DNA from: Aquitalea magnusonii
GTDB lineage: Bacteria > Pseudomonadota > Gammaproteobacteria > Burkholderiales > Chromobacteriaceae
Reading direction: 5' to 3'
NCBI RefSeq assembly: GCF_002217795.2
Contig: NZ_AP018823.1
Span: 1,116,001 to 1,180,000, forward strand
DNA: 64,000 bases
Below are positions 25,626 to 48,269 of the stretch, piece by piece; position 1 is the stretch's first letter, and the number at the start of each line of letters is the position of its first letter. The notes under the pieces are model-generated. The model saw only the letters and a list, made by a program, of their open reading frames with translations, searched no databases and was not told where the DNA came from. Position numbers and translations under genes: made by a program.

Positions 25626-25894
25626 GGCGCGATTGTACCGCAAGGAGGGGGTGGTTTAGGTGCTAAAGCGTCATGGATTTTCGTCTGCGCGCAAATGTTG
25701 CTTTGCAAAATGACGCCGCGCTCTGCTTGTGGCTAGGATAGCCGCAAAACAATTCATCAGGCGTGATCAGAAATGGCGCAGTCACCAGCGGAAGCTGGTT
25801 GAGGTGTGACAAGAAAAAAGCTGACACGTTTTGCGTACGCACGGACAGACAAATAACAAGTACGCAGTGTTCTGCACACAGGAGAAATGAGTTG

Positions 25895-27853
25895 ATGACA
25901 CCCGTTAGCCGCGTTTTGGTGGTAAGCGATGATGCAAAGTGGCAGTCCGACGTTCTGGCCGGGCTGGGTGCCGTGGCCGTGCGGCTGGAAAACCCTTATG
26001 GCCTGACTTTTATCGGTGCCTCCCGTTTGAAGGAGGCGATGGACATCATCCGGCGTGATGGTGATATCCAGGCTGTGCTGGTAGACAAGCAGTTGCAGGA
26101 GAAGGGACTGAATCAGGCGGCGGTTGCGCTGGCCAATCAGATCAGCGACTTCCGGCCCGAGCTGTCCTTATATGTATTGCTGATGGATGATGACGAGCGT
26201 GTGCTGGTGGAGAATCTGGCCAGCCACGCGGTGGATGGCTATTTCTACCGCGACGAAACCGACTACAACGGCTGGTTCCGTATCCTCACTGCCGAACTGG
26301 CGGAAAAGTCTGCCACGCCGTTTTACGACAAGCTGAAGCAATACGTGCGCATGGCCAAGGATTCCTGGCACACGCCCGGCCACGCTGGTGGCGATTCGCT
26401 CAAGGGCAGCCCGTGGGTCGGCGATTTTTACGACTTTGTCGGCGAGAACATGTTGCGCGCCGACCTGTCCGTTTCCGTACCGATGCTGGATTCCCTGCTG
26501 CACCCGACCGGGGTGATTGCCGAGTCGCAAAAGCTGGCTGCCAAAGCCTTTGGCGGGCGCAAGACCTATTTCGCCACCAACGGTACTTCCACCTCCAACA
26601 AGGTAATCTTCCAGACCTTGCTGGCTCCGGGTGACAAGCTGTTGCTGGACCGCAATTGCCATAAGTCGGTGCATCACGGGGTGATCTTGTCGGGTGCCTT
26701 GCCGGTGTATCTGGACTCCTCCATCAACAAGCAGTACGGCATTTTCGGCCCGGTGCCCAAGGCCACCATCTTTGCCGCCATCGAAGCCAACCCGGATGCG
26801 CGGGTGCTGATTCTGACTTCCTGCACCTATGATGGCCTGCGATACGATCTGGTGCCCATCATTGAAGCTGCGCATGCAAAGGGCATCAAGGTGATTGTGG
26901 ATGAGGCCTGGTACGGTTTTGCCCGCTTCCACCCGGCCTTCCGCCCCACAGCCTTGGAGTCCGGTGCCGACTATGTCACGCAAAGCACTCACAAGATTCT
27001 GTCCGCCTTCTCGCAGGCCAGCATGATTCACGTGAATGACCCCGGATTTGACGAGCATCTGTTCCGGGAAAACTTCAACATGCATACCTCCACCAGCCCG
27101 CAATACAACCTGATTGCCAGTCTGGACGTGGCGCGCAAGCAGGCAGTGACCGAGGGCTACCGGCTGCTGGACCGTACGCTGAAGCTGGCGGAGGAGCTGC
27201 GCGACAAGATCAACTCCACCGGGGCTTTCCGTGTGCTGGAGCTGGAAGACCTGCTGCCCGAGGAGATGCGCGAGGATGGCATCCGGCTGGACCCGACCAA
27301 GCTGACCGTGGATATCAGCCAGTCCGGTTTTACCACCGATGAGCTGCAACACGAGTTGTTCGAGCGTTACAACATCCAGGTGGAGAAATCCACTTTCAGC
27401 ACCATCACCCTGCTGCTGACCATGGGTACTACGCGCAGCAAGGTATCACGGCTGTATGATGCGCTGCTGCGGCTGGCCAAGGAAAAGCGCGCACCGCGTG
27501 CCGTCGGCCGCATGCCGGAGATCCCACGTTTTTCCCGCCTGGCCTGCCTGCCGCGCGACGCGTTTTACGAAGCCGGCGAGCGCCTGCCCTTGCTGGATGA
27601 TGATGGTCGACCCAATGCGGCCCTGAATGGACGGGTGTGTTGCGACCAGATCGTGCCTTACCCGCCCGGCATTCCTGTTCTGGTACCGGGGCAGGTGATT
27701 GACGACAGTATCCTGTCTTATCTGGCGCGTCTGCAAAAGACACAAAAGACCATAGAAATGCATGGACTGGCCGAAGATGGCGGGGAAATGTATGTCAGAG
27801 TGCTAAAAGATAGGGAACTTTCCCATTTGCCTGACAGATTATTGTTCGGCTGA
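25895..27853 (+). CDS. Orn/Lys/Arg decarboxylase, PLP-dependent
   Basis: 652 aa fold-type I decarboxylase. Residues 1 to about 115 form the receiver-like wing domain, followed by the PLP domain with CHKSVHHG and the Schiff-base Lys367 in STHKILSA. Such enzymes make cadaverine, agmatine or putrescine and often serve acid resistance. It is shorter than the 710-755 aa E. coli inducible enzymes, and no antiporter gene adjoins it. The ATG at 25895 has GGAG ten bases upstream; the open frame extends 44 codons further without support. Substrate not determined, though the argF/argG neighbours make ornithine or arginine plausible. Confidence 0.85.
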   Translation: MTPVSRVLVVSDDAKWQSDVLAGLGAVAVRLENPYGLTFIGASRLKEAMDIIRRDGDIQAVLVDKQLQEKGLNQAAVALANQISDFRPELSLYVLLMDDDERVLVENLASHAVDGYFYRDETDYNGWFRILTAELAEKSATPFYDKLKQYVRMAKDSWHTPGHAGGDSLKGSPWVGDFYDFVGENMLRADLSVSVPMLDSLLHPTGVIAESQKLAAKAFGGRKTYFATNGTSTSNKVIFQTLLAPGDKLLLDRNCHKSVHHGVILSGALPVYLDSSINKQYGIFGPVPKATIFAAIEANPDARVLILTSCTYDGLRYDLVPIIEAAHAKGIKVIVDEAWYGFARFHPAFRPTALESGADYVTQSTHKILSAFSQASMIHVNDPGFDEHLFRENFNMHTSTSPQYNLIASLDVARKQAVTEGYRLLDRTLKLAEELRDKINSTGAFRVLELEDLLPEEMREDGIRLDPTKLTVDISQSGFTTDELQHELFERYNIQVEKSTFSTITLLLTMGTTRSKVSRLYDALLRLAKEKRAPRAVGRMPEIPRFSRLACLPRDAFYEAGERLPLLDDDGRPNAALNGRVCCDQIVPYPPGIPVLVPGQVIDDSILSYLARLQKTQKTIEMHGLAEDGGEMYVRVLKDRELSHLPDRLLFG

Positions 27854-29012: not shown

Positions 29013-30239
29013 ATGTCTGACATCAAAAAAGTAGTGCTGGCCTACTCCGGTGGCCTGGATACCTCCGTCATCCTGAAATGGCTGCAAGACACCTATCACT
29101 GTGAAGTAGTCACTTTCACCGCCGACATCGGCCAGGGTGAAGAAGTGGAACCGGCCCGCAAGAAAGCCATTGCGCTGGGCATCAAGCCGGAAAACATCTT
29201 TATCGAAGACCTGCGCGAAGAGTTTGTGCGCGACTACGTGTACCCGATGTTCCGTGCCAACGCCATCTACGAAGGCGAGTACCTGCTGGGTACTTCCATT
29301 GCCCGTCCGCTGATCTCCAAGCGCCAGATCGAAATCGCCAATGCGGTGGGCGGCGATGCGGTATCGCACGGTGCCACCGGCAAGGGTAACGACCAGGTGC
29401 GTTTCGAGCTGGGCTACTACGCGCTGAAACCGGACGTCAAGGTGATTGCACCGTGGCGCGAATGGGACCTGCTGTCCCGTGAAAAACTGCTGGCCTACGC
29501 TGAAAAGCATGGCATCGACATCAGCAAGAAAAAGAATGGTGGCAGCCCGTACTCCATGGATGCCAACCTGCTGCACATCTCCTACGAAGGCACCGTGCTG
29601 GAAAACCCGGCAGCCGAGCCGGAAGAAGATATGTGGCTGTGGACGGTCAGCCCGGAGAATGCCCCGGACCAGGCCGAATACATCGAGCTGAGCTACGAAA
29701 AGGGTGATATCACCGCCATCAACGGCGTGGCCATGACCCCGGCACAAGTGCTGACCGAGCTGAACCGTCTGGGCGGCAAGCATGGTATCGGTCGTCTGGA
29801 CATCGTGGAAAACCGTTATGTGGGCATGAAGTCCCGTGGCTGCTACGAAACTCCGGGCGGCACCATCATGCTCAAGGCGCACCGCGCCATCGAATCCATC
29901 ACGCTGGACCGCGAAGTGGCCCACCTGAAGGATGAGCTGATGCCGAAGTACGCCAAGCTGATCTACACCGGCTACTGGTGGAGCCCGGAGCGTCAGATGC
30001 TGCAAGGCCTGATCGACGCTTCGCAAGCCACGGTCAACGGCTGGGTACGCCTGAAACTGTACAAGGGCAATGTCATCGTGGTGGGGCGCGAATCCAAGAC
30101 CGATTCGCTGTTCGACCCGAACATCGCCACCTTCGACGAAGACGGCGGCGCATACAACCACGCCGATGCAGCCGGCTTCATCCGCCTCAATGCCCTGCGC
30201 ATGCGGATTGCCGCCAATGCCAAACTCAAGCGCGGCTGA
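29013..30239 (+). CDS. argG: Argininosuccinate synthase
   Basis: 408 aa enzyme that condenses citrulline and aspartate with ATP, the step after ArgF. The N-type ATP pyrophosphatase loop AYSGGLDTS is at residues 10-18, with [11 protein letters not shown] after it and [10 protein letters not shown] in the substrate domain. Length is normal for the type I enzyme. A strong terminator follows. The other arginine genes (argB, argC, argH and so on) are not in this window. Confidence 0.96.
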
Positions 30240-30249
30240 TTGGCCCGCT

Positions 30250-30284
30250 AAAAAAAACCGCCTTCGGGCGGTTTTTGTTTTTTG
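30250..30284 (+). terminator. Terminator after argG
   Basis: The stem AAAACCGCC-TTC-GGGCGGTTTTT is followed by more T, 12 bases after the argG stop codon. Confidence 0.9.
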
Positions 30285-30414
30285 CTGCATTTATCTGGTG
30301 GAAAAGTTGAGAGCCGGCTCAGGGCGGCGTATCGTATCGATTCTGTTTGCCTGACTGGCAGATGTCACGACAAGCCATGTGAGCCCATTACTGCATTCAT
30401 CAAGGAACATCAGG

Positions 30415-30618
30415 GTGTCTGAAGAGCAATTTACCGATATTTCCATGACCGTGTGTCTGACCGGTCTCATCATCTTCATGGGTTTCATCATCTGGGACCT
30501 GGGCAAGAAGTCCCAGGCAGGCAAGATGGGTACTGCCGTGCTGTTTCTGGTACTGGGTTTCGGGGTGGTCGGCTTCATCTTCAAGAACGTGCTGGTGGAG
30601 TTCCTGGTACTGAAGTAA
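30415..30618 (+). CDS. Small DUF2788 membrane protein
   Basis: 67 aa with two hydrophobic segments (about residues 9-27 and 39-60) around a KKSQAGK loop. It resembles the short betaproteobacterial DUF2788 family of unknown function. The GTG at 30415 has AAGGA eight bases upstream, which decides it over an unsupported ATG at 30379. Single gene between two terminators. Confidence 0.75.
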   Translation: MSEEQFTDISMTVCLTGLIIFMGFIIWDLGKKSQAGKMGTAVLFLVLGFGVVGFIFKNVLVEFLVLK

Positions 30619-30632
30619 ACAGCACTACGTAA

Positions 30633-30668
30633 TGAAAACGGGTTGGCCATTGCCAACCCGTTTTTTTA
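30633..30668. terminator. Terminator between the DUF2788 gene and the LysE-type gene
   Basis: The stem AACGGGTTGGC-CAT-TGCCAACCCGTT is followed by seven T. On the other strand it is followed by TTTTC, so it may also serve the minus-strand transporter gene. Confidence 0.85.
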
Positions 30669-30696
30669 TGGTGATATGCACTGTTTGCCGTGCCGC

Positions 30697-31335
30697 TTAG
30701 CGCGGTGGCAACAGGATCAGCCGCAGGCCAAGAGCGATGAAAATGCTACCGGCCAGGCGATCCAGCCACTGGCTGGCCTTGGGGGTGCGCTTAAACCAGT
30801 TGCCAATGGCACCGGCAAAATAACCCAGGCTGCCAAACAAGATTGCGGCTTGTGCGGTGAAGATCAGCCCCAGAATCGCTGTTTGCCAGCCACTGTGGCC
30901 CTGGGCCGGATTGACGAACTGCGGCAGGAAGGCCAGAAAGAACAGCACGACTTTGGGGTTGATGGCATTGGCAATCAGGCCCTTGCGAAAATGTGCTGCC
31001 AGCGGGGTGTTCCCAGCCTGACTGCCATCGGCGTGCAGGCTGCTTCCCTTGCTGTGGATAGCCTGCCAGCCCAGATATACCAGATACGCGCCTCCGGCAA
31101 ATTTCAGCAGGCCAAAGGCAGTGGGCGAGGCGGCAATCAGTGCGCTCACCCCCAGTGCCGCCAGCAGGGTGTGGGTGATGCAGCCCAGCGCGCAGCCCAG
31201 GCCAAATACCATGCCCTGCCGCCGCCCCTTGGCGATGCCCAGGCTCAGGACCATCAGATTGTCAGGTCCGGGGGAGAGGGTGATCAGTACTGCTGCGGCA
31301 GTGAAGGCTGCCAGTTGCTCAGGGCTTACGATCAT
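30697..31335 (-). CDS. LysE/RhtB-family amino acid exporter
   Basis: 212 aa inner-membrane protein with about six hydrophobic segments. The start LITLSPGPDNLMVLSLGIAKGRRQG is the LysE/RhtB signature. These proteins export amino acids such as homoserine, threonine, lysine or their analogues. It is the last minus-strand gene of this block, with its own spacing of about 150 bases from the permease gene, so it may not belong to the amine-catabolism set. Substrate unknown. Confidence 0.85.
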   Translation of the reverse strand: MIVSPEQLAAFTAAAVLITLSPGPDNLMVLSLGIAKGRRQGMVFGLGCALGCITHTLLAALGVSALIAASPTAFGLLKFAGGAYLVYLGWQAIHSKGSSLHADGSQAGNTPLAAHFRKGLIANAINPKVVLFFLAFLPQFVNPAQGHSGWQTAILGLIFTAQAAILFGSLGYFAGAIGNWFKRTPKASQWLDRLAGSIFIALGLRLILLPPR

Positions 31336-31437
31336 GGCGACGCTCTCAGGGTAAACAAGACAACATCATTAAGTATTTTCTGGCAGCGGACAAGCAGGCT
31401 TGTCCGGTTGGCTTGCTTTGTTCCCGGTGTATTCAAC

Positions 31438-31466
31438 AGAAAACGGCCATGCTGGGCATGGCCGTC
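31438..31466 (-). terminator. Terminator after the APC permease gene
   Basis: The stem ACGGCCATGC-CCA-GCATGGCCGT on the minus strand is followed by TTTTC, 20 bases after the permease stop codon. Confidence 0.75.
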
Positions 31467-31485
31467 ATGGTTGCCGACCTCAGGG

Positions 31486-33024
31486 TCAGGCGGTCTTGTC
31501 CAGCGCACTCTCGATCTCGCGGATGTGTGCCTGATGTTTCTGGATGCGCTCACCGATGGGCGGCCCCTTGAACTGCTTGCGCACCCCCAGTACGAACCAG
31601 AAAAACAGCAGCACCAGCAGCAGTGCCACGGTGAGGTATAACACCTTCTGATTGGGCGGCTGCATGCCGACAAAGGCCAGAATGGCACCGCCAAGAGTGG
31701 CCAGCAGGGCGATCGGTTTTGATGCCGCGCCCAGGCTGAACGGACCTTTGTGCGTCCAGGTCTTGCCTTCGGCAAACATCCCTGCAGTCACCGGAATGAT
31801 GTAGGAAATGTACAGGAATACCGCAGAACCGGCGGACAATACGGTAAAGGCATCTCCGTACAGGGTGGCGACGATAGCCAGGGTGGCGCTCACCCAGATG
31901 GCCAGGCCGGGGGTGCGGTGAACCGGGTGTACCTGTTTAAGCTGGTGGGAGAAGGGCAGGCCGCCATCACGGGCAAAGGCATACATCATGCGAGAGGTGG
32001 ATGTCAGGCAGGCCAGGCCGCACAGATAGTTCACCAGGAAAATGCCGATGCCCAGCACGGCCTTCAGCAGCGGCGGCAGGCTGCCCAGCAGCAGGTCAAA
32101 AAAGCCCATGCCGGCCTTGACGCCAGCCTGCATGCTGGGCAGTACCAGCACGAAGGTGCAGATCAGGATGTAGCCGAACAGGGCGGACCATAGCACGGAG
32201 CGCAAAATGCCCTTGGGTACATTGTGGGCGGCCTGATGGGTTTCTTCGGAAGTGTGGGCCGAAGCGTCATAGCCGGTGAGGGTGTACACCGTCAGCAGCA
32301 GACCGGAGAGGAAAACCAGCAGGCTGCTGTCCGTCTTGGGCCAGGTGCCGCCATCGGCACCGCTGAAGTTGCTGAAGGTGAACAGGCGGGAGAAGTCCAG
32401 CGGTCCGGGGGCATAGGCCAGCAGCGCAACGGTCAGGACCACGGCAATGACGAAAATCAGGTAGCCGGACATATCGGTCAGACGGGTGGTGATCTTGATG
32501 CCCAGATGGTTGAGCCATGCCTGGCTGATGGTGATGCCCGCCAGAAACAGGGTTTGTTCCGTCCAGGTGAGTTGCTCTGGATTGATGCCCAGCAGGGGGG
32601 CAATCAGGGTTTTGAAAAAGGGGTCATACACGCCGAAATTGACCGAAGCCACTACGAAGATCAGCCCTAGCAGATTGATCCAGGCGGTGACCCAACCCAA
32701 GCCCTTGCCGCCGAGGATGGACGACCAGTGATACAGGCCGCCGGCGGTGGGGTAGGAAGAGGCAATTTGCGCCATGGCCGCAGCGACAATGCTGGCAAAC
32801 AGGGCACCCACCGGCCAGCCTATGCCGATGGATGCGCCGCCTCCGGCGCTCAGTCCGGCGGGAAAGGCGGTGATGCCGCCGGCCAGGATGCAGATGATGG
32901 AAAAGGAAATGGCAAAGTTGGAAAAACCGCTCATGCGTCTGGACAACTCCTGAGCGTAACCCATGCTGTGTAACAGTTTCTCGTCCTCGCCCGGCGGCGT
33001 GGCGGCGTGCTGATCTCGCTTCAT
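31486..33024 (-). CDS. APC-superfamily amine/amino acid permease
   Basis: 512 aa with about twelve hydrophobic segments. The start LHSMGYAQELSRRMSGFSNF and the SIICILAGGITAF segment match the amino acid/choline transporter (ACT) branch of the APC superfamily, which includes fungal GABA and choline/ethanolamine carriers. The ATG at 33024 has AAGGA seven bases before it. It lies downstream of the hydrolase, dehydrogenase and ligase genes on the same strand, so it is the likely uptake system of amine set I. Substrate is inferred only. Confidence 0.85.
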   Translation of the reverse strand: MKRDQHAATPPGEDEKLLHSMGYAQELSRRMSGFSNFAISFSIICILAGGITAFPAGLSAGGGASIGIGWPVGALFASIVAAAMAQIASSYPTAGGLYHWSSILGGKGLGWVTAWINLLGLIFVVASVNFGVYDPFFKTLIAPLLGINPEQLTWTEQTLFLAGITISQAWLNHLGIKITTRLTDMSGYLIFVIAVVLTVALLAYAPGPLDFSRLFTFSNFSGADGGTWPKTDSSLLVFLSGLLLTVYTLTGYDASAHTSEETHQAAHNVPKGILRSVLWSALFGYILICTFVLVLPSMQAGVKAGMGFFDLLLGSLPPLLKAVLGIGIFLVNYLCGLACLTSTSRMMYAFARDGGLPFSHQLKQVHPVHRTPGLAIWVSATLAIVATLYGDAFTVLSAGSAVFLYISYIIPVTAGMFAEGKTWTHKGPFSLGAASKPIALLATLGGAILAFVGMQPPNQKVLYLTVALLLVLLFFWFVLGVRKQFKGPPIGERIQKHQAHIREIESALDKTA

Positions 33025-33247
33025 GATGATCCTTTTTCCTGTGTTGAATGACACCTTGTGGAAATGCACTTGCTGAAACATCACCCTTTGCATTACCAGC
33101 AAGCGCCGGGCAAGAGGATGGCCGAGGGTCGGTGTTGCCTATTGCTCGCCCCCATGGCGGCGATCCTGTTCCTGCCGGTCTGCTGCTGGTGTTCTGCGGC
33201 ACGTTGCTGCCGTAATGACCGAATGGCGGTGCGTGCAGCCACCGGCT

Positions 33248-33955
33248 TCAGTTCTTGTTGCTGCTCATGCGGATCAATGCATCAAACAGCGCCTGCTGGC
33301 GGCTGTCTTCGGCAGCGGAAAGCTCCGGATGCCACTGCACTGCAATCACCTGCGGTGCATCATCGATTTCAATGGCTTCAATCACGCCATCCTCGGCCCA
33401 GGCGACGGCGCGCACGCCATGGCCTGCACGGTCGATTGCCTGGTGGTGCCAGGATTTGCTGCTGATTTGCGTGCTGCCCAGCAGCCCGGCCAGGCAGGAG
33501 TTTGCGGCCACCCGCACCCTGTGCAGGGTGGGGTCGCGTGGCGGCACCCGGTGTTCTACCGCTTCACCCACCACATCCGGCAGATGCAGATGCAAGCTGC
33601 CACCCAGCACGGTATTGATAATCTGCAAACCGCGGCAGATGGCCAGCGTGGGCAGCTTGCATGCAAGCAGGGAGCGTGCCAGTGCGATTTCGGTTTCGTC
33701 CCGTTCCGGGCTGAGGTTGTAGATGGTGGGGTGCAAGCCACCATCGAACAGCGCTGGCGCAATATCGCCGCCACCAATCAGCACAACCCCGTCCAGGGCA
33801 GCCAGCCAGCTGTCGATGGCGGATTGCCCCACCGGGGGAAGCAATACCGGTGCCCCGCCCGCCCGCACCACGGCGTGTACATAGTCCAGCGGGGTGTGAT
33901 AGCCATGGCCCTGGCCGGCGGGGTAGGTGGTCAGGCCGATCAGCGGGGGCTTCAT
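33248..33955 (-). CDS. Class I amidotransferase-like gamma-glutamyl hydrolase (PuuD-like), set I
   Basis: 235 aa, peptidase C26 type. Nucleophile Cys107 is in AICRGLQ and the catalytic His/Glu are in QWHPE near residue 210. In the Puu pathway such enzymes release glutamate from gamma-glutamyl-GABA. It overlaps the iron alcohol dehydrogenase gene by 4 bases (ATGA), so it is translationally coupled. It is only distantly like the second PuuD at 45905-46660, which suggests another gamma-glutamyl substrate. Confidence 0.82.
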   Translation of the reverse strand: MKPPLIGLTTYPAGQGHGYHTPLDYVHAVVRAGGAPVLLPPVGQSAIDSWLAALDGVVLIGGGDIAPALFDGGLHPTIYNLSPERDETEIALARSLLACKLPTLAICRGLQIINTVLGGSLHLHLPDVVGEAVEHRVPPRDPTLHRVRVAANSCLAGLLGSTQISSKSWHHQAIDRAGHGVRAVAWAEDGVIEAIEIDDAPQVIAVQWHPELSAAEDSRQQALFDALIRMSSNKN

Positions 33956-35115
33956 GGCAGCCTTCCTTCCACGGCGGCCTGATAGATGCTGCTGTAGTCG
34001 CTGGCGCTGAGCGCGAGCGGATTGCCGCCATCGCTGGGATCGGCCTTGGCCATGCGGCCGATGGTGTCAGCCTGCCCGATCGGGAGGTTGATCTGACCCA
34101 GGCTGTGCGGAATGCCCAGCGCGCTGCGCAATTGCAGTATCCAGGCCAGGAAACCGTCAAAACTGCTATCGGCCAGACCGATATAGCGCGCCGCGGCGGT
34201 CAGTTTGTCGGCAATGGCAGGACGATTGCGCACCATCACATAGGGCAGCAGGATGGCATTGGCCAGGCCGTGGTGGGTGTCGAACACCGCACCGATGGGA
34301 TGGGCCAGCGCATGCACGCCGCCCAGTCCCTTCTGGAAGGCGGTGGCGCCCATGATGGACGCCGCCAGCATGTGGGTACGGGCTTCGATATTGCCGCCAT
34401 CGGCATAGGCGGCCGGCAGCCAGTCATGCACCAGTTTCATGCCTTCCAGCGCCACACCCTGTGCCAGTGGGTGATAAAACGGTGAACAATAGGCTTCGAA
34501 ATTGTGCACGAAGGCATCGATGCCGGTGGCCGCGGTTAGCTGTGGCGGCAGGCCGGTGGTGAGTTCCGGGTCGGCCAGAACCAGTCGTGGCAGCATGGAC
34601 GGGTGGAAGATGATGACCTTGCGGTGGTCTTCCTCATCAATGATCAGCGAGGCGCGGCCCACTTCGGAGCCGGTGCCGGCAGTGGTGGGGATGGCAATGG
34701 TGGGGGCCACGCCGGCCACATTCACCCGCAGCCAGTTGTCGCCCACATCTTCAAAATCCCATAGCGGACGATCCTGGCCCACCATCAGGGCAATGGCCTT
34801 GCCCACATCCAGCGCGCTGCCACCCCCCACGGCAATCACGCCATCGTGCCGGCCTTCCTTGTAGGCATGGATGCCGGCGTAGACATCGCGCCCCACCGGA
34901 TTGGGGCGCATGTCGCTAAATAGCTGCGCTGGCAGGCCGGCGGATGCCAGGTAGTCCAGCAAGCGCGCCACCAGCGGCAGCCGACAGAGGCCCGGATCAG
35001 TAACCAGCAGCGGGCGGTGCATGTTCAGTTGTCGGCACAGTGCGGGTAATTCGCTGGCGCGGCCTGCGCCAAAGCGGATGCTGGTCGGATAGTTCCAGTT
35101 GCCTTGCAGTTGCAT
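33952..35115 (-). CDS. Iron-containing alcohol dehydrogenase, set I
   Basis: 387 aa group III NAD-dependent dehydrogenase. Nucleotide-binding GGGSALDVGKA is at residues 97-107. Iron ligands Asp200, His204, His268 and His282 are all present, matching the FucO pattern. It is coupled to the hydrolase gene by a 4-base overlap and follows the aldehyde dehydrogenase by 3 bases. An alcohol dehydrogenase inside a glutamylation operon suggests that the glutamylated substrate carries a hydroxyl group. The proposed reaction, oxidation of a gamma-glutamyl amino alcohol, is an inference. Confidence 0.85.
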   Translation of the reverse strand: MQLQGNWNYPTSIRFGAGRASELPALCRQLNMHRPLLVTDPGLCRLPLVARLLDYLASAGLPAQLFSDMRPNPVGRDVYAGIHAYKEGRHDGVIAVGGGSALDVGKAIALMVGQDRPLWDFEDVGDNWLRVNVAGVAPTIAIPTTAGTGSEVGRASLIIDEEDHRKVIIFHPSMLPRLVLADPELTTGLPPQLTAATGIDAFVHNFEAYCSPFYHPLAQGVALEGMKLVHDWLPAAYADGGNIEARTHMLAASIMGATAFQKGLGGVHALAHPIGAVFDTHHGLANAILLPYVMVRNRPAIADKLTAAARYIGLADSSFDGFLAWILQLRSALGIPHSLGQINLPIGQADTIGRMAKADPSDGGNPLALSASDYSSIYQAAVEGRLP

Positions 35116-35118
35116 GAT

Positions 35119-36504
35119 CTACCCCTTGAGATGGAAGGACTTGATGCGGGTGAGTTGCTGATAGCCCAGTACCGACAGCGAAATGCCCCGGCCAGTGTCC
35201 TTGACCCCGGTCCAGGCGAGGGCAGGGTCCAGGTAGTCGCAACGGTTCATGAACACGGTGCCGGTGGCAAGCTCATCCCCCAAGCGGATTGCCGCCTGGT
35301 GGTCCTGCGTCCACAGCGAGGCAGTCAGGCCGTAGGTGCTGTCATTCATCAGGGCGATGGCCTCGGCATCCGAGTCCACCGGCATGATGCCGATGACCGG
35401 GCCGAAGCTCTCGTCGCGCATTACGCTCATGCCGTGATGCACGTCCACCAGCACCTGCGGGGCCAGATAGGCCGTACCGGGTGCATCGGCGGCAAAGTGG
35501 CCGGCAGGAATCAGGGCCTTGGCCCCGGCGGCCACGGCGTCGGCAATCTGGCCGCGCACAAAACTGGCGGCGCTGGCACGCACCATGGGGCCCAGATTGG
35601 TGTCGGCATCCAGTGGATTGCCAAAGCGGTAAGCCTTGGTGAGCGCGACAAAGCCGTCAACAAAGGCGGCGTAGTGGCTGCGGTGAACATAGATGCGTTC
35701 GATACCGCAGCAGGATTGCCCGGAGTTGAAAAACGCACCGTCCACCAGGTTTTCGATGGCGCAGGCCAGGTCGGCATCGGCGCGCACATAGGCCGGGTCC
35801 TTGCCGCCCAGCTCCAGTCCTACACCGATAAAGCGCTCACTGGCCGCCCGCTGTACGGCACGGCCACCGGCCACCGAGCCGGTAAAGGCAACAAAATCGA
35901 TCTGCGGTGCCGCCACCAGCCGCAGGGTGGCGGCATGGTCCAGTTGCAGGCTCTGGAATACGCCCGGCGGCAGCCCGGCGGCATCAAAAGCCTGCTGGAA
36001 CAGCTCACTCACCAACGGTGTTTGCGAGGAGTGCTTGAGGATGACGCTATTGCCGGCGGCCAGCGCCGGCACGATGGTGTTGATGGCGGTAAGGAAGGGG
36101 TAATTCCATGGTGCCAGTACCAACACCGTACCCAGCGCTTCGCGGCGCAGAAAGCGCTGAAAGCCGGGCTTGGCGGCAGGGTGGATGTCGGCCAGCCCCT
36201 CCTCGGCAATGGACAGCATGTAGCGGGCGCGCTCTTCCAGACCGCGCACTTCGCCGGGCGATTGGCTGATGGGGCGGCCGATCTGGCGGCTAATGGCTTC
36301 GGCACAGGCATTCTTGTGGGCGACCAGCCAGTCCACGGCTAGGCCGATCAAGGCCTGGCGTTCGGCCAGCGGGGTATGCTGCCAGCCGTGCTGTGCTGCC
36401 TTGGCGGCATCCAGTACCGCCTGGGTGTGGCTGGCCGTGGCATAGGGCCGCTCCAGCAGGACGGCACCATCGACGGGAGAAATCACGGAATAAGATGTGC
36501 GCAT
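35119..36504 (-). CDS. NAD(P)-dependent aldehyde dehydrogenase, set I
   Basis: 461 aa. General base Glu231 is in LELGGK and catalytic Cys265 in GQSC, with APWNYP and the FTGSVAGG cofactor loop in place. It is shorter than the usual 480-500 aa and lacks the longer N-terminal arm. The start is adjacent to the stop codon of the ligase gene. In set I it would oxidise the aldehyde made by the iron alcohol dehydrogenase. Clearly different from the PuuC-like enzyme at 43336-44823. Confidence 0.87.
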   Translation of the reverse strand: MRTSYSVISPVDGAVLLERPYATASHTQAVLDAAKAAQHGWQHTPLAERQALIGLAVDWLVAHKNACAEAISRQIGRPISQSPGEVRGLEERARYMLSIAEEGLADIHPAAKPGFQRFLRREALGTVLVLAPWNYPFLTAINTIVPALAAGNSVILKHSSQTPLVSELFQQAFDAAGLPPGVFQSLQLDHAATLRLVAAPQIDFVAFTGSVAGGRAVQRAASERFIGVGLELGGKDPAYVRADADLACAIENLVDGAFFNSGQSCCGIERIYVHRSHYAAFVDGFVALTKAYRFGNPLDADTNLGPMVRASAASFVRGQIADAVAAGAKALIPAGHFAADAPGTAYLAPQVLVDVHHGMSVMRDESFGPVIGIMPVDSDAEAIALMNDSTYGLTASLWTQDHQAAIRLGDELATGTVFMNRCDYLDPALAWTGVKDTGRGISLSVLGYQQLTRIKSFHLKG

Positions 36505-37872
36505 TTAGATGATCTCGAAGTAGCGTTTCAATTCCCAGTCGGTGACATGGCGCTGGAACTCACGTTCTTCCCACTCGCGGGTGGCGGCAAAGTGATCGAC
36601 AAAATCATCACCAAACCAGTCGCGGGCAGCAGACGAGGCGCGCAGGGCCTGGGCGGCATCCCACAGGGTGCGGTGCAGTTGCAGGTGCGGTGGTGCCTGC
36701 ATCAGGTAACCGTTGGCAGTCACCGGTTCTTCCGGCTCAATCTTGTTTTCTATGCCGTACAGTCCGGCGGCCAGACCGCTGGCGAGTGCCAGATAAGGAT
36801 TGGTATCCGCACCCGGCAGGCGGTATTCCACCCGTTGGGATTTGCTGCTGCCCGGAATGGCACGAATGGCCACGGTGCGGTTATCCACGCCCCACAGGGC
36901 GCTGGTGGGAGCCCAGTAGCCGGGTACCAGGCGGCGGAAACTATTGATGGTGGGTGCGGCCAGGCTCATGAATTGCGGCATCAGTTTCTGGATGCCGCCA
37001 ATGAAATGACGCATGGTGTCGCTGATATTGTGCTCACGCCCGTCCTGGTGGAAGGCGCTGTGGCCGTCCCGGTCTTTCAGCGAGATATGGATGTGGCCTC
37101 CCTGGCCGGAGTGCTCCTCGTTCCATTTGGCCATGTAGCACACCATGCGGCCCTGTTTCTCCGCCAGAACCTTGGAAAAGGTTTTGAAGCAGACGGCGTT
37201 GTCGGCCGCCGTCATGGCTTTGTCCACCGTCAGGGCGGCTTCCAGTGCGCCGGGGCCGGTTTCTTCGTGAAAGCCTTCGATCGGCATATCCATCTGTTCG
37301 CACAAATCCAGCAGGCCGCGATAGAACTCGGTATTCACCGAGTTGCGCAAGACCGAGTACCCAAAAGCACCGCTGCCCAGTGGCTTGGGCTGCTGGTATA
37401 GCTTGCCCTGCAGCGCCTCATGGCTTTCGTCGGTGACCAGGAATTCATACTCGAAGCCAGCCATCGGCTCAAAGCCCATGGCACGGGCGCGCTCCACTAC
37501 CCGGCGCAGCACGCCGCGCGGACACAGCCCTTCCAGCCGGCCAAGCACCTCGCCCTGCACGAAGATCATATTGTCTTCCAGCGGCAGCTCGCGGCAGGAC
37601 TCGGGAATCAGCCTGATCTGCGCGTCGCCATAGCCGCGGCCCCAACCGGTAAGCAGGGTGTTGTCGTACAGCTTGTCTCCCACATCCCAGCCGAATACCA
37701 CGTCACAGAAGCCAAAGCCGCCCTCCAGCGAGGACAGGAACTTGTCGCGCGACATGTATTTGCCGCACATCACGCCATCGATATCTACCAGGCCAACCTT
37801 GATCTGCCGTAACTGACGCTGTTCGATCAGGGTTTTCAAATCCGCCATTGTCTTCACATGCCGAGCATCCAT
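36505..37872 (-). CDS. Glutamine-synthetase-family gamma-glutamyl-amine ligase, set I
   Basis: 455 aa. It has the GS beta-grasp start (KVGLVDIDGVMCGKYMSRDKF) and the catalytic domain with GFEYEF, EETGPGALEAAL and the GGHIHISL segment. It belongs to the PuuA-like branch, which glutamylates amines instead of ammonia. The ATG at 37872 has AAGGAG seven bases upstream; the frame is open 63 codons further through the AT-rich promoter region. First gene of the set I row and divergent from the MurR/RpiR-type regulator. Amine substrate unknown; an amino alcohol is proposed. Confidence 0.85.
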   Translation of the reverse strand: MDARHVKTMADLKTLIEQRQLRQIKVGLVDIDGVMCGKYMSRDKFLSSLEGGFGFCDVVFGWDVGDKLYDNTLLTGWGRGYGDAQIRLIPESCRELPLEDNMIFVQGEVLGRLEGLCPRGVLRRVVERARAMGFEPMAGFEYEFLVTDESHEALQGKLYQQPKPLGSGAFGYSVLRNSVNTEFYRGLLDLCEQMDMPIEGFHEETGPGALEAALTVDKAMTAADNAVCFKTFSKVLAEKQGRMVCYMAKWNEEHSGQGGHIHISLKDRDGHSAFHQDGREHNISDTMRHFIGGIQKLMPQFMSLAAPTINSFRRLVPGYWAPTSALWGVDNRTVAIRAIPGSSKSQRVEYRLPGADTNPYLALASGLAAGLYGIENKIEPEEPVTANGYLMQAPPHLQLHRTLWDAAQALRASSAARDWFGDDFVDHFAATREWEEREFQRHVTDWELKRYFEII

Positions 37873-37944
37873 GATTGCTCCTTGTGCTGGTGTTGGGTGG
37901 GTGGCAGGTGTGGTCTTCCTCCTGTTGTGCGCAGTATTGTTCGT

Positions 37945-37983
37945 TAGAAATTTGCAAATCAAGAATAAAATGTAATAGAAATT
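37945..37983. promoter_or_regulatory. Direct repeat and palindrome, candidate operator of set I
   Basis: TAGAAATT occurs at 37945-37952 and again at 37976-37983, 31 bases apart, about three helical turns. The 10-base palindrome ATTTGCAAAT (37950-37959) overlaps the first copy. The site lies in the AT-rich gap between the ligase and regulator genes, and is a candidate binding site for that regulator. Confidence 0.4.
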
Positions 37984-38131
37984 AGATTGTGCTATGCAAT
38001 GTGGAAGCAATGCCACAATGCGGTTTGTTACAAGATGGCTGGTATCATTTGCTTCATGCATCCCGCTGCCGTTTAGCCTGCAGGATTGTTAACAAGGGCT
38101 TGTCAGTCATGGCCTGATTGTGGAGAACACC

Positions 38132-39004
38132 TTGAGTCATCAGCGGTCCATTGCGGAAGAACTCCGCAGTCTGTTTGAAAGCCTGACCCCAACCGAGCGC
38201 AAGGTGGGGCGCGTGCTGCTGGCCAATTACCCGGTGGCCGGACTGGAAACCATTGCCCAACTGGCAGCGCGTGCCGATGTCAGCGGACCAACCGTGCTGC
38301 GGCTGATCAGCAAGTTGGGCTATGACAGCTATACCGCCTTCCAGACTGCGCTGCGGGATGAGCTGGAGGTCAGGCTGCAGTCGCCCTTGCTGCGTCACGA
38401 TCCGGCCCAGTTGCAGGGCGATCACGACTTTCTGGTGGCTTACGCCACTAAGGTGGCGCAGTTGATGCAGCAGACCGTGGCCCATCTGCCGCGTGCCGAA
38501 TTTGATGGTGTGGTGGACATGCTGGGCGAACGCAAACACCGCATCTGGCTATTGGGCGGCCGGCTGACCGATCCGCTGGCGGCCTATTTGTGCCACCACC
38601 TGAAAGTGGTGCGTGCTGATGTGGTGCATCTGCGCGGACTGCCCTCCAGTTGGGCGGACTCGCTGGTGGACATGGGCAAGCACGATGTGCTGGTGATCTT
38701 TGACATCCGGCGCTACTGGGATGGTGCGCTCAACATTGCGCAGATGGCCGCCCAGCGCAAGGTGAACGTGCTGCTGTTTACCGATCAGTGGCTGTCGCCG
38801 GTTTCCCGGGTGGCGCGCTTCACCCTGGCCGCGCATACCGCAGGTCCTTCCGGTTGGGACAGCAATACGCCGCTGATGCTGCTGGTGGATGCGGTGATCG
38901 CCGCGCTTAATACCCGGTACTGGGGATCCATCAGCAACCGTTTGCAGGAAGTGGAGGCCATGCGTGCGCGCCTGGGCGAGGGCGGTGCGCAGGCTGGCGA
39001 GTGA
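38132..39004 (+). CDS. MurR/RpiR-family transcription regulator
   Basis: 290 aa. An N-terminal helix-turn-helix domain (about residues 1-75, with LTPTERKVGRVLL and ADVSGPTVLRLISKLGY) is followed by a SIS domain (about 120-250, with IWLLGGRLTDPLA). SIS domains bind phosphosugars or similar ligands. The TTG at 38132 has GGAG six bases upstream; a GTG at 38120 is in frame but lacks a site. It is divergent from the set I ligase gene and is the likely local regulator of amine set I. Confidence 0.85.
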   Translation: MSHQRSIAEELRSLFESLTPTERKVGRVLLANYPVAGLETIAQLAARADVSGPTVLRLISKLGYDSYTAFQTALRDELEVRLQSPLLRHDPAQLQGDHDFLVAYATKVAQLMQQTVAHLPRAEFDGVVDMLGERKHRIWLLGGRLTDPLAAYLCHHLKVVRADVVHLRGLPSSWADSLVDMGKHDVLVIFDIRRYWDGALNIAQMAAQRKVNVLLFTDQWLSPVSRVARFTLAAHTAGPSGWDSNTPLMLLVDAVIAALNTRYWGSISNRLQEVEAMRARLGEGGAQAGE

Positions 39005-39067
39005 CAAGGCCGTGCGCAATCTCTAGAATTGCGCCATTCAGATATACATGCCTTACAGGATCACGCC

Positions 39068-39568
39068 ATGCCGTCTTTCGATATTGTTTCCGAAGTCAAT
39101 AAAGTAGAAGTACGCAATGCTGTCGAGCAGGCCAACAAGGAAGTGTCCACCCGTTACGACTTCAAGGGCAGCGACTCCCGCATCGAGCAGACCGACAAGG
39201 ACATCACCTTGTATGCGGATGCCGAATTCCAGCTGGACCAGGTCAACGACATCCTGGTCAACAAATTGTCCAAGCGCGGCGTGGATGTGCGCAGCCTGGA
39301 ATACGGCAAGCTGGAAAAAGTCAGCGGCAACAAGGTCAAGAAAGTGCTGACCGTGAAGGAAGGCCTGGAAACCGAGATGGCCAAGAAAATCGTCAAGATC
39401 ATCAAGGATGCCAAACTGAAAGTGCAGGCCAGCATTCAGGGCGAGGCGGTGCGCGTGTCCGGTGCCAAGCGCGACCTGCTGCAAGAGTGCATTGCCCTGC
39501 TGCGCAAGGAAATTGCCGACGACAAGGAAAACGGCGTACCGCTGCAGTTCAACAACTTCCGCGACTAA
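39068..39568 (+). CDS. YajQ-family nucleotide-binding protein
   Basis: 166 aa with two ferredoxin-like halves. The start [19 protein letters not shown] and the [24 protein letters not shown] segment are the YajQ signature. Xanthomonas homologues bind cyclic di-GMP and affect virulence genes, while others bind GTP or tRNA; which applies here is open. The ATG at 39068 has AGGA before it; the frame extends 13 codons further. Single gene with its own terminator. Confidence 0.92.
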
Positions 39569-43335: not shown

Positions 43336-44823
43336 TTACAGCTTGATCAGCGTGCTCTTCAACTCGGTGTACTTTTCCAGCGCGTGCAGCGATTTGTCGC
43401 GACCATTACCGGATTGTTTGAAGCCGCCGAAGGGGAAGTTCATGTCGCCACCTTCGTCATAGCAGTTCACCCATACCGTACCGGCACGCAGACGGCGCGC
43501 CACCTGATGCGCGGTGCTGACATTGGATGTCCATACCGCGGCAGCCAGGCCGTACTCGGTATCATTGGCAATGCGGACAGCTTCATCGATGGTATCGAAA
43601 GTAATCACCGACAGGACCGGTCCGAAGATTTCCTCGCGGCAGGTGGTCATGTCCGGGCGCTGGCAATCAAAGGCGGTCGGCTCGATAAACAGGCCCTTGT
43701 CGGTGTGGGCCGCCTTGCCGCCACAAATCAGGCCGGCACCTTCGCTGATGCCCTTGTCCACGTAGGACAGCACCTTGTCGTACTGGATCTTGTCCACGAT
43801 GGCACCCATGCTGGTGGCCGGATCCAGCGGATCGCCCGGATACCAGCCTTGCGCGGCCTGCTTGAATTCAGCCAGGAATTGTTCCTTTACCTTGCGGTGT
43901 ACCAATACGCGGGAGCCGGCGGTACACATTTCCCCCATATTGAAGAAAATGCCGCCGGCAGCGGTGCGGGCAGCCTTGGCGATATCGGCGCAGTCTTCCA
44001 GCACGATATTGGGCGATTTGCCGCCCAGCTCCAGCCACACGCGCTTGAGGTTGGACTGTGCGGCATAGCCGGCAATCAGCTTGCCCACGCCGGTGGAGCC
44101 GGTGAAGGCCAGGCAATCCACGTCCATGTGCAGCGCCAGCGCCTTGCCGACTTCACCGGCACCCGGCAATACCTGGAAAATGCCATCCGGAATGCCGGCA
44201 TCCTTGGCCAGTTGGGCCAGTCGGATGGCGGTGAGCGGAGACTTTTCCGACGGTTTGACGATGACGGCATTGCCGGCAGCCAGCGCCGGGCCGAATTTCC
44301 AGCTTGCCATCAGGATGGGGAAGTTCCACGGCACCACCGCAGCCACCACGCCAATGGCTTCACGGGTGACCAGGCCTACCAGCTTGGGGTCGACCGGGGC
44401 CACTTCGCCACCGATCTTGTCGATGGCTTCGGCAAACCATTCCACGCAATACGCCGCACCCGGCACGTCCACCGTGGTGGAGTCGCCAATCGGCTTGCCC
44501 ATGTCCAGGGTTTCCAGCAGGGCCAGTTCGTCGCCATGCTCACGGATCAGCGCGGCAAAGCGCTTGAGGATCTTGCCGCGTGCCAGCGGAGCCAGCTCGG
44601 ACCATGCGCCGGAATCAAAAGCGGCACGGGCTGCCTTGACCGCTGCATCCACTTCCGCCTCTCCACACCAGGCGATGTCGGCCAGCTTCTGGCCGTTGGC
44701 CGGGTTGATGCAGTCAAAGGTCTTGCCATCGGCGGCGCTGGTGTAAGCGCCGTTGATGAAAGCGCGGCCTTCGATATTGAGTTCGGCAGCAAACTGCTTC
44801 CACTGTGCATGGGTACGAGCCAT
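43336..44823 (-). CDS. puuC: Gamma-glutamyl-gamma-aminobutyraldehyde dehydrogenase
   Basis: 495 aa NAD(P)-dependent enzyme, full length for the family. General base Glu265 is in LELGGKSP and catalytic Cys300 in NMGEMCTAGSR; the latter block is typical of PuuC/betaine-aldehyde-type enzymes. In polyamine breakdown it oxidises gamma-glutamyl-aminobutyraldehyde to gamma-glutamyl-GABA. It sits 59 bases downstream of puuR on the same strand, and across the intergenic region from puuD-puuA. Free aminobutyraldehyde is another possible substrate, since a SpuC-type transaminase is encoded close by. Confidence 0.88.
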   Translation of the reverse strand: MARTHAQWKQFAAELNIEGRAFINGAYTSAADGKTFDCINPANGQKLADIAWCGEAEVDAAVKAARAAFDSGAWSELAPLARGKILKRFAALIREHGDELALLETLDMGKPIGDSTTVDVPGAAYCVEWFAEAIDKIGGEVAPVDPKLVGLVTREAIGVVAAVVPWNFPILMASWKFGPALAAGNAVIVKPSEKSPLTAIRLAQLAKDAGIPDGIFQVLPGAGEVGKALALHMDVDCLAFTGSTGVGKLIAGYAAQSNLKRVWLELGGKSPNIVLEDCADIAKAARTAAGGIFFNMGEMCTAGSRVLVHRKVKEQFLAEFKQAAQGWYPGDPLDPATSMGAIVDKIQYDKVLSYVDKGISEGAGLICGGKAAHTDKGLFIEPTAFDCQRPDMTTCREEIFGPVLSVITFDTIDEAVRIANDTEYGLAAAVWTSNVSTAHQVARRLRAGTVWVNCYDEGGDMNFPFGGFKQSGNGRDKSLHALEKYTELKSTLIKL

Positions 44824-44882
44824 TGGTGTTCTCCTGATGTTATATGCGGTGATCCCGGTTGCTCGTGGCTGGCAACCGTCAA

Positions 44883-45428
44883 TCAGAATGTGGGCGGCGA
44901 GCTGGCGCTGACGATTTCACAGACTTGCTGGCCGATATTGCGAAAACGGTGCGGCAGCTTGCTGTCAAAATAGTAAGAGTCGCCCGGTCCCAGGACACGG
45001 GTTTCATTATTGACCGTGAGTTCGATCGAGCCGGCGATGATGACACCACCTTCCTGGCCTTCATGCGTCAGCATGTCCGGCCCGGTGTCGGCACCCGGTT
45101 CGTAATGTTCTTTCAGAATGGCAATGTCACGCCGTTCGTGCGCAGTGCCAACCAGCAGCAGCTTGATTTGATCATTGCCCAGATTGGGCAGCTCCTTGGC
45201 CTGATAAAACACGCGTGGCTGTTGCGGCTCTACATCAAAAGTGAAGAATTCGGCCAAGGTCATGGGCATGCCCTCCAGCACTTTCTTCAAGGAGCTGATC
45301 GACGGGCTGACGCGATTCTGCTCGATCAGCGAGATCGTGCCGTTTGTGACGCCTGCCCGCTTGGCAAGTTCGCGTTGCGAGAGTCCGAAGCGCTCTCTGA
45401 CCACTCTCAATCGTGCTCCAACATCCAT
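44883..45428 (-). CDS. puuR: Cupin-containing XRE regulator, PuuR-like
   Basis: 181 aa. An XRE helix-turn-helix domain (residues 1 to about 60, with GLSQRELAKRAGVTNGTIS) is joined to a C-terminal cupin domain (about 108-175, with GPGDSYYFDSKLPHRF). This is the layout of PuuR, the putrescine-responsive repressor of the puu genes. It is divergent from puuD-puuA and probably controls both directions and itself. Inverted repeats in the shared upstream region are candidate operators. Confidence 0.87.
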   Translation of the reverse strand: MDVGARLRVVRERFGLSQRELAKRAGVTNGTISLIEQNRVSPSISSLKKVLEGMPMTLAEFFTFDVEPQQPRVFYQAKELPNLGNDQIKLLLVGTAHERRDIAILKEHYEPGADTGPDMLTHEGQEGGVIIAGSIELTVNNETRVLGPGDSYYFDSKLPHRFRNIGQQVCEIVSASSPPTF

Positions 45429-45904
45429 CTGGCGGTTTCCATCTATGTTAATAATTTTAGACGTTCCATCATAGGGTTTTTGATCGTATCCTGCATCTGT
45501 TGTTGCGTCGCAAAATCAAATTATTTTGCAAGTTTTCGAGTTTATAGCCAGAATCGACCACAGGAATCAAGTGCGCTGTGGATTTTTTTAAACAAGCGCA
45601 ACGGTATATTTGATCAAACCTTGGCTTGATGCAAGAACCATGGCATGCTGTTTCGTGCTGGTATTCTGCACAGCGACAGCATACTTTCCACTGCGTAGTT
45701 GTTTTGTCCCTTGCCTGGCAATGGCGAGACTGGCTGGGCAGTTGCGGTAGCAGGGCGCAGAATATGTCATGCCAATGAAGGCCCCCGGCCGGTGTTGCCG
45801 GGTTTGCGCCGGCCAGTCCCGCCCGGTCGGCGCACCAGCGCAGTGAAGTTGCAACTGTCGGCGCTCGCAGTAGCGAACGCCTCAATCGAGTTAACGAGGT
45901 CCTT
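45429..45904. other. Regulatory gap between puuR and puuD
   Basis: 476 bases without a convincing gene. It holds the inverted repeat at 45510-45529, the palindrome TTTGATCAAA at 45609-45618 and a further TTTGATC at 45479-45485. Near puuD is a GGCCGG/CCGGCC hairpin (45787-45814), probably in the mRNA leader. No riboswitch was recognised, and a clear -35/-10 pair could not be picked out. Confidence 0.6.
45510..45529. promoter_or_regulatory. Candidate PuuR operator, inverted repeat
   Basis: GCAAAAT (45510-45516) and ATTTTGC (45523-45529) form a perfect inverted repeat around CAAATT. It lies 82 bases ahead of puuR, in the shared control region. Confidence 0.45.
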
Positions 45905-46660
45905 ATGCAGCAACCGATCATCGGCATTCCGTGTGATGTGAAACTGGTAAGCGGTCTGCCATTTCACGCGGTTGGCGAGAAGTACATTGCCGCTGCCGCA
46001 GGTGGCGTGGGCGGTATTCCGGTGCTGATCCCGTCGCTGGGTGATGCAGCGCCGCTGCGCGAATATCTCAAATTGGTGGACGGCGTACTGCTGCCAGGTT
46101 CGCTGTCCAATGTAGAGCCACATCGTTATGGCGGAGAAGCCAGCCGCCAGGGAACACTTCATGATCCGGCGCGTGACGCAACCACGCTGCCGTTCATCGA
46201 CCTTCTTCTGCAAGAAGGCATCCCGCTTCTGGGTATTTGCCGCGGTTTCCAGGAAATCAATGTTGCACTGGGCGGCGAACTCTTCCAGCACGTACAGGAA
46301 GAGCCAGGTTTCCGCGATCATCGCGAGCCGGATACTCAGAATCTGGATGAGATGTATGGTCTGGCTCACGCCTTGCACCTGCAACCGGACAGCTTGCTCA
46401 AGAGCTGGCTGGGGCAGGATGAAGTCAAGGTGAACTCGCTGCACCAGCAAGGTATCAAACGTCTGGCCGACCGCCTGATTGCGGAAGGTGTGGCGGATGA
46501 CGGGCTGGTGGAGGCATACCGGGTCCGCGATGCCAAGGGCTTTGCCTATGGCGCGCAGTGGCATCCGGAATGGAAATACTGGGAAAACCCGGTGTCCATG
46601 GCCATTTTCAACGCGTTCGGTGACGCTTGCCGCGCGCGTCGTGCCAGCCGCCAGGGCTGA
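45905..46660 (+). CDS. puuD: Gamma-glutamyl-GABA hydrolase
   Basis: 251 aa class I amidotransferase-like hydrolase (peptidase C26). Nucleophile Cys112 is in GICRGFQE, and the His/Glu pair is in AQWHPEWKYWENP. PuuD releases glutamate and GABA from gamma-glutamyl-GABA. Residues such as HDPARD and FRDHR are typical of PuuD proper. The puuA gene follows 53 bases later, so both are probably on one transcript starting in the puuR-puuD gap. Confidence 0.9.
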   Translation: MQQPIIGIPCDVKLVSGLPFHAVGEKYIAAAAGGVGGIPVLIPSLGDAAPLREYLKLVDGVLLPGSLSNVEPHRYGGEASRQGTLHDPARDATTLPFIDLLLQEGIPLLGICRGFQEINVALGGELFQHVQEEPGFRDHREPDTQNLDEMYGLAHALHLQPDSLLKSWLGQDEVKVNSLHQQGIKRLADRLIAEGVADDGLVEAYRVRDAKGFAYGAQWHPEWKYWENPVSMAIFNAFGDACRARRASRQG

Positions 46661-46713
46661 GACGCACGTCATCCAGAGCCGGTTTACCGGCCACTATGGA
46701 AGTAGAGGAAAAC

Positions 46714-48045: not shown

Positions 48046-48269
48046 GAAGAAGCTTCAGGTGAGTGCTGCCGGTCAGCGATGATCGGCAGCCGACGTTCGG
48101 GGTGCCGGATGTCAGGGTAGTGACAGTTGCAAGGGATGGCTTGATTCCGCCGCCCGCACCGCCGGGTTTGGTGTGGAAAGCGTCCTGTTGCAGCCTGAGG
48201 CTGGCCGATTCCGGTCAGCCCAACAATAAGCCCCCAGAGGGCTGGAGAGATAGTAGAGAGGAAGCTTTT

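Follow-up and report, generated by a model that had tools for sequence, protein, structure and literature searches.

A five-gene operon with a divergently transcribed regulator, here termed set I, lies within the 64,000-nucleotide stretch of Aquitalea magnusonii DNA analyzed in this work (the window; contig NZ_AP018823.1, positions 1,116,001 to 1,180,000), which belongs to a 4.85 Mb genome assembled as a single contig. We consider it probable, at roughly 0.8, that this operon encodes, in a variant form, the gamma-glutamyl ethanolamine route, which is independent of cobalamin. In the predicted pathway, an APC permease would import ethanolamine and a glutamine synthetase (GS)-like ligase would use ATP to join it to glutamate, yielding gamma-glutamylethanolamide. 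An iron-type alcohol dehydrogenase (Fe-ADH) would convert the alcohol to the aldehyde and an aldehyde dehydrogenase (ALDH) the aldehyde to gamma-glutamylglycine, from which a Peptidase_C26 (C26) hydrolase would free glycine and glutamate; since oxidation would occur on the glutamylated form, free aminoacetaldehyde would never be formed. As long as neither ethanolamine nor an intermediate is available, the operon is probably repressed by the RpiR-type protein, acting from a site near 37972-37984, where a candidate operator lies. A first-pass annotation of this DNA had postulated amino-alcohol chemistry, with glutamyl capture, two oxidations and hydrolysis; this chemistry is supported and equals the known gamma-glutamyl ethanolamine route. 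The pathway as such is therefore already known, and what appears to be new is its architecture, with a ligase from another branch, a C26 hydrolase in place of an FGase-type enzyme and an APC permease in place of a TRAP transporter.

As a precedent, the first-pass annotation had named Streptomyces, where ethanolamine glutamylation is indeed known, yet the closest counterpart is an operon of Phaeobacter/Roseobacter MED193, described in PMC10132767 as RpiR regulator, hydrolase, TRAP transporter, ethanolamine gamma-glutamylase, ALDH and alcohol dehydrogenase. According to Table 2 of that paper, five of the operon's proteins rise on phosphorylethanolamine, and its text cites Chromohalobacter and Agrobacterium, for which the route had been proposed, as earlier cases. 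We located this operon (L263, MED193_10021-10056) in the published order, RpiR-FGase-TRAP-GS-ALDH-FeADH; a profile match supports the FGase assignment (PF05013) in L048 and L052, two loci of like gene order, the MED193 hydrolase being 43% identical to that of L052. Like the window, MED193 combines an RpiR regulator (35% identical to the window protein), a GS-like ligase, ALDH, Fe-ADH, a predicted glutamyl-glycine hydrolase and a dedicated transporter. Because the window ALDH and Fe-ADH are 54.6% and 52.6% identical to their MED193 counterparts, members of a set that rises on phosphorylethanolamine, the downstream enzymes point to ethanolamine. Differences lie in the ligase, which comes from another GS-like branch and has Trp rather than the MED193-type Phe at the ammonium-flap position, in the hydrolase (C26 instead of FGase) and in the transporter (APC instead of the TRAP EtoX system). 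The Streptomyces GlnA4 cluster (SCO1610-1615) resembles the window in its GS-like ligase, ALDH, predicted amidotransferase/hydrolase and divergent regulator, going by its description in PMC6529630. In that account, GlnA4 makes gamma-glutamylethanolamide, its activity on ethanolamine being proven, a short-chain dehydrogenase (orf2) is listed with no Fe-ADH named, and the clusters of some species include a permease unlike EutH and Eat.

Loci for comparison were picked by ligase similarity alone, covering 40 of 60 match rows from outside the window's own genome, the best 80 of 593 matches in named genomes and 9 of 16 non-own matches at the level of the order (L240-L248), with five loci of the window's own genus set aside. 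The three closest ligases among the best 80 of 593 named-genome matches are from Aquitalea (96-98% identical); the ligase of A. magnusonii DSM 25134 is 97% identical, and EutB is present in that genome (G398) too. Group A, defined by a ligase at least 54% identical to that of the window, comprises 42 loci, 41 of them distinct and 34 with at least 4 kb on both sides; several share one genus or species, so the counts given for it overstate independence. Among these 34 loci (ligases 54-97% identical), an ALDH lies within 8 kb of the ligase in 33, an Fe-ADH in 32 and both in 31. An RpiR homologue is present in 15/34. By coordinates, none of the other five GS-family genes of the window's genome has an Fe-ADH within 10 kb. 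The grouping of the window genes is thus beyond chance. The hydrolase is more variable: C26 in 17 of the 34 loci, MlrC-like in eight, M20-type and FGase-like in one each, and none recognized in seven. The MlrC-like (M81) metallopeptidases lie near ligase operons in which C26 was not found (L062, L098, L099, L152, L240, L241, L246 and L247), the assignment being by M81 profile match in L098 and by similarity in the others, and are candidates for an alternative gamma-glutamylglycine hydrolase.

Catalytic motifs are kept in the GS-like ligase, the C26 hydrolase, the ALDH and the Fe-ADH of the window, read in the sense customary for these families. Aligned with GlnA of the same genome, the ligase keeps 11 of the 13 active-site positions compared. 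In the usual numbering of GS active-site residues, the E327 position is occupied by Trp320, and the Y179 position falls in an alignment gap, as it does in nearly all rows; by this alignment the metal and glutamate sites are intact and the ammonium-site Glu is replaced. In groups A, B and C, all 33 rows have Trp at the E327 position, as has 1/13 other rows; in group D, the group with MED193-type ligases, all 16 rows have Phe. The best Protein Data Bank matches of the window ligase, 5dm3 and 11zs, are nearly tied; we take 5dm3 to be Csal_0679. Against the NCBIfam model for gamma-glutamylputrescine synthetase (NF045547) the ligase scores 187 bits, below the 650-bit cut-off.

The transporter is exchanged among these operons, and the kinds that replace one another bear on the substrate. 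Among the 34 group A loci with sufficient flanks, the window-type APC permease occurs in 13, an Eat (TIGR00908)-like permease in seven and an EtoX-type TRAP protein in two. The TIGR00908 profile scan took in five of the seven Eat-like permeases: those of L087, L096 and L246 score 602-636 bits, above the equivalog cut-off of 382, and those of L242 and L245 score 351 and 360, just under it. In L086, L087 and L154, whose ligases are 74-77% identical to that of the window, the Eat permease follows C26, in the position of the window's APC gene; the L087 protein reaches 620 bits, and those of L086 and L154 are 90-91% identical to it. EtoX-type TRAP proteins occur in L058 and L063 (L063 ligase, 55%). 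The L063 protein matches Protein Data Bank entry 4uab, presumably Csal_0678 with ethanolamine, with 564 bits, and is 72% identical to MED193 EtoX. EtoX of MED193 is reported in PMC10132767 to bind ethanolamine with a Kd of 7.88 uM. Group D (28 loci) likewise has EtoX in nine loci, APC in nine, Eat-like permeases (36-38% identical to that of L087) in three and none in seven; since six of the nine APC loci were chosen via the permease and L263 as MED193, the unbiased counts (n=21) are EtoX 8, APC 3, Eat-like 3 and none 7. Because relatives carry a TIGR00908 permease or an EtoX-type TRAP protein, ethanolamine is favored.

The earlier placement of the window permease in the choline/ethanolamine-carrier branch is fair: its best NCBIfam match is TIGR00907, with a score under the cut-off of 598 bits, and the same profile scan lists none to TIGR00908. 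Among its best 120 of 6949 database matches, those that bear a name are for the most part called "amino acid permease" or "amino acid transporter". A search for homologues through 398 genomes from the phylum (E up to 1e-90) and 399 from the order (E up to 1e-170) located them in 35 other genomes. In 21 of these the homologue is next to a gamma-glutamyl operon (with no more than about 5 kb between it and the ligase; 5/21 from the window's own genus), in eight it is within 6 kb of EutB and in six it has neither context. The EutB-linked loci are L183 (EutC confirmed adjacent), L184, L232-L236 and L239; EutB of L232-L236 and L239 is 39-42% identical to that of the window's genome, and L232 has an EutB-EutC fusion and EutA beside the permease homologue. 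Since homologues lie by EutB in 8/35 genomes, the window permease type is tied independently to ethanolamine. In genomes G479 and G474, a group A operon stands on a contig other than that of the permease. From this gene context we infer that ethanolamine is the best-supported substrate; between ethanolamine and 3-aminopropanol, the two candidates of the first-pass annotation, the context points to ethanolamine.

Several points weigh against this assignment. Literature searched yielded no assay of an enzyme from the window's ligase lineage. The window ligase is only 31% identical to the MED193 ligase, and this value together with its different tree branch rules it out as a plain orthologue; in this superfamily, the likeness of two ligases says little about what they act on, as the 31%-identical enzymes appear to do the same job and the closer ligases of L100-L102 (48-49%) stand in aminotransferase operons. 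At the position of GlnA Asp50, the aligned window ligase still has Asp, so that only the E327 and Y179 positions speak for a loss of ammonium binding. In twelve of the 34 group A loci, no transporter of these three kinds was recognized. Of the permease homologues with neither context, that of G249, 73% identical, adjoins an aminobutyraldehyde dehydrogenase, and five more (G324, G321, G333, G590 and G474, the contigs of G590 and G474 being 21 and 17 kb long) also lack both. Finally, the same genome carries Eat-EutB-EutC with a divergent EutR-like regulator (G000:C1:971686-976689; L180 7687-12690), and EutB is present in 11 and absent in 16 of 27 genomes with this ligase lineage (26) or a near outgroup (L100), completeness being known for eight of the 27. 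Set I is therefore not simply the only ethanolamine route of these genomes, and the idea that eutBC is absent and set I the sole route here was dropped once EutB was found. Eat-EutBC has probably the same substrate as set I and also an APC-superfamily permease, and differs in deaminating ethanolamine to acetaldehyde in a cobalamin-dependent reaction, with no glutamylation.

These points leave some room for another amino alcohol (3-aminopropanol, aminobutanol, isopropanolamine or 2-aminopropanol) processed by the same chemistry, with ethanolamine left to Eat-EutBC. Besides the second route and the G249 neighbor, such a substrate would suit the best NCBIfam model of the Fe-ADH, 4-hydroxybutyrate dehydrogenase, though the score of 328 bits is far under the 500-bit cut-off. 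We regard it as unlikely in view of the Eat permeases of the relatives with 74-77% identical ligases (L087, 620 against a cut-off of 382 bits), the EtoX-type proteins of L058 and L063, and the permease homologues near EutB in eight genomes. Moreover, Vogesella oryzae holds both Eat-EutB and a set I with its own Eat, and the presence of EutB is therefore no argument for another substrate.

A putrescine or polyamine pathway of the Puu type (PuuA-PuuB-PuuC-PuuD), in which the Fe-ADH would be a bystander or an aldehyde-reducing enzyme, shares gamma-glutamylation, an ALDH step and a C26 hydrolase with set I, and the window ligase and C26 are PuuA- and PuuD-like. Unlike that pathway, set I has an Fe-ADH predicted to act on an alcohol as well as another regulator and permease, and no PuuB-type oxidase or diamine aminotransferase was found among the six window genes. 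Loci L100-L102 do combine a ligase 48-49% identical to that of the window and an ALDH with an aminotransferase, but they have no Fe-ADH, and the PuuA-type loci L049-L051 also have ALDH and aminotransferase without Fe-ADH; the Fe-ADH, retained in 32/34 relatives of set I, therefore marks an alcohol substrate. A Puu-type set does lie about 4 kb away, yet it already supplies PuuA, PuuC, PuuD and PuuR types and an aminotransferase, and the transporters indicate ethanolamine for set I, so that we hold a Puu function of set I to be very improbable. This neighboring set II (43336-49649) is of the Puu type, with a PuuC-like ALDH, a regulator with HTH and cupin domains (PuuR-like), C26 and a GS-like ligase, and has a class III aminotransferase in place of the oxidase. 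The L100-L103 set (ligase 48-49% and ALDH 57-59% identical, class III aminotransferase, no Fe-ADH, and in L100 also a histone-deacetylase-like protein) is probably a diamine or polyamine route. Further loci, L104-L150, have ligases 42-48% identical to that of the window, many of them in Bacteroidota, with a frequent order of Eat-like permease, GS, Fe-ADH, C26 and ALDH; an Eat-like permease occurs in 16 of the 31 distinct loci from groups C and B that have 4 kb on each side.

At L232, proteins like glycerol kinase and type 2 glycerol-3-phosphate (G3P) oxidase are encoded by the permease and the EutB fusion; similar genes occur at L240, and the oxidase only at L060. This suggests glycerophosphoethanolamine salvage. 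Such phospholipid headgroup turnover would also fit a module that detoxifies or recycles ethanolamine or lipid amines set free inside the cell, in which case the permease would be an exporter or exchanger. TIGR00908 permeases and TRAP EtoX are, however, regarded as uptake systems. For EtoX this is the view taken in PMC10132767; internal recycling is suggested in PMC6529630 for the S. coelicolor cluster, which has no permease. We give this explanation of set I hardly any credence compared with uptake and glutamylation of external ethanolamine.

The history of the operon was addressed with quick trees with SH-aLRT support (62 GS, 52 ALDH and 48 Fe-ADH chosen rows), which include some long rows and in which the tested groups were named after identities were known; the GS tree was computed without the long row L155, and the Fe-ADH tree with two paralogues from the window's genome as outgroup. 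The GS tree joins groups A, B and C with three L067-type rows and separates them from D and the PuuA types (support 99). A branch apart from PuuA and GlnA types (support 96) takes in groups A, B, C and D, the L067-type rows and L151, so that A and D represent deep lineages within a single, larger clade of ligases; the test of A+B+C+D against the other 13 rows gave p-AU = 0.066. Group C lies between A and D, a single A+D clade being rejected (p-AU = 1.7e-5), as was A+B+D+L067-type without C (p = 0.004). In the ALDH tree, by contrast, C stands outside a clade that unites A, B and D (support 100), and the test rejects A+B+C (p = 0.0025). The Fe-ADH tree unites A and D (support 93), A+C not being rejected (p-AU = 0.18), and D nests inside A in both dehydrogenase trees, although the branches on which a replaced ligase in D would depend lack strong support. 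The GS and ALDH trees disagree; the ligase and at least the ALDH therefore have discordant histories, which implies that some exchange of ligase and dehydrogenases between operons took place. Either group D would have taken a new ligase or dehydrogenases would have moved between A and D, and the nesting of D inside A would fit the first. On a broader view, to which we give even odds, ethanolamine glutamylation is a mosaic that combines closely related Fe-ADH/ALDH pairs with two separate ligase branches, several unrelated hydrolases (C26, FGase and M81 MlrC-type, the last in 8/34) and several importers, including the TIGR00907-like APC protein of the window as an unrecognized class of ethanolamine permease. 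In its boldest form, the characterized marine operons would carry a replacement ligase and the window would keep the older partner, a direction that the trees allow without showing it. Among the titles and abstract beginnings listed, a scope mostly outside the subscription literature, we found no description of this ligase lineage, of this APC type as an ethanolamine permease or of the pathway in Chromobacteriaceae.

The features of the locus are collected in Table 1. Profile matches confirmed all five adjacent minus-strand genes of the first-pass annotation. The divergent MurR/RpiR-type regulator is present too, although the interval originally drawn, ending at 38131, reaches only its first bases. 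The GS, ALDH, Fe-ADH and C26 genes are contiguous, nearly contiguous or overlap by four bases, and a gap of about 220 bases separates C26 from the APC gene.

Table 1 Features of set I and its flanks (positions in the window).
Feature	Position	Strand	Evidence
APC permease, TIGR00907-like; predicted ethanolamine importer	31486..33024 (probable start); open reading frame from 33102	-	PF13520 171 bits; TIGR00907 236 bits
PuuD-like Peptidase_C26 hydrolase; predicted gamma-glutamylglycine hydrolase	33248..33955	-	PF07722 184 bits; AICRG and QWHPE motifs
Fe-ADH; predicted gamma-glutamylethanolamide dehydrogenase	33952..35115	-	PF00465/PF25137; DAFVH, HALAH and HGLA motifs
ALDH; predicted gamma-glutamyl-aminoacetaldehyde dehydrogenase	35119..36504	-	PF00171 415 bits; Cys in GQSC, Glu in LELGGK
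GS-like gamma-glutamyl-amine ligase; predicted gamma-glutamylethanolamide synthetase	36505..37872; open reading frame open upstream to 38061	-	PF00120 336 bits
RpiR/MurR-type regulator, divergent	38120..39004	+	HTH_6 (PF01418) and SIS (PF01380)
Candidate operator TAATTTCTATTAC	37972..37984	-	divergent intergenic region; similar block in relatives
Candidate terminator, 11-pair stem	31442..31466	-	20 bases past permease stop; weak

The divergent intergenic region spans 247 bases. Of 16 such regions extracted from relatives, 10 were aligned, and these share a block like TAATTTCTATTAC, with mismatches. This sequence has its sole exact match in the genome here; matches with at most one mismatch number 11, versus 12 in a reversed control, and the window holds two with at most two mismatches versus 0.97 expected, so that we treat it as a candidate operator. 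A search of the intergenic region for one sigma-54 pattern gave no match, and a sigma-70 scan of 30200-39300 gave three sites versus 2.8 in shuffles, none of them in the divergent region. The candidate terminator is weak because the scan total of eight is no higher than in shuffles (mean 6.8). Downstream of the permease lies a LysE-family exporter (30697-31335), found at the same place in Aquitalea and Chromobacterium loci; it was set aside as an operon member, as the stem-loop separates it and it follows the permease in these two genera only among the loci examined. Farther away, an Orn/Lys/Arg decarboxylase is encoded at 25763-27853, adjoined by open reading frames that we take to resemble argF and argG.

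Taken as a gamma-glutamyl ethanolamine operon, set I offers a specific function for vaguely named genes in Aquitalea, Chromobacterium, Vogesella and relatives, and its APC permease would represent an additional class of ethanolamine importers. A cell using the glutamyl route would save cobalamin and gain glycine, and with a cobalamin-free route next to EutBC in one genome, the question of why bacteria keep both becomes testable.

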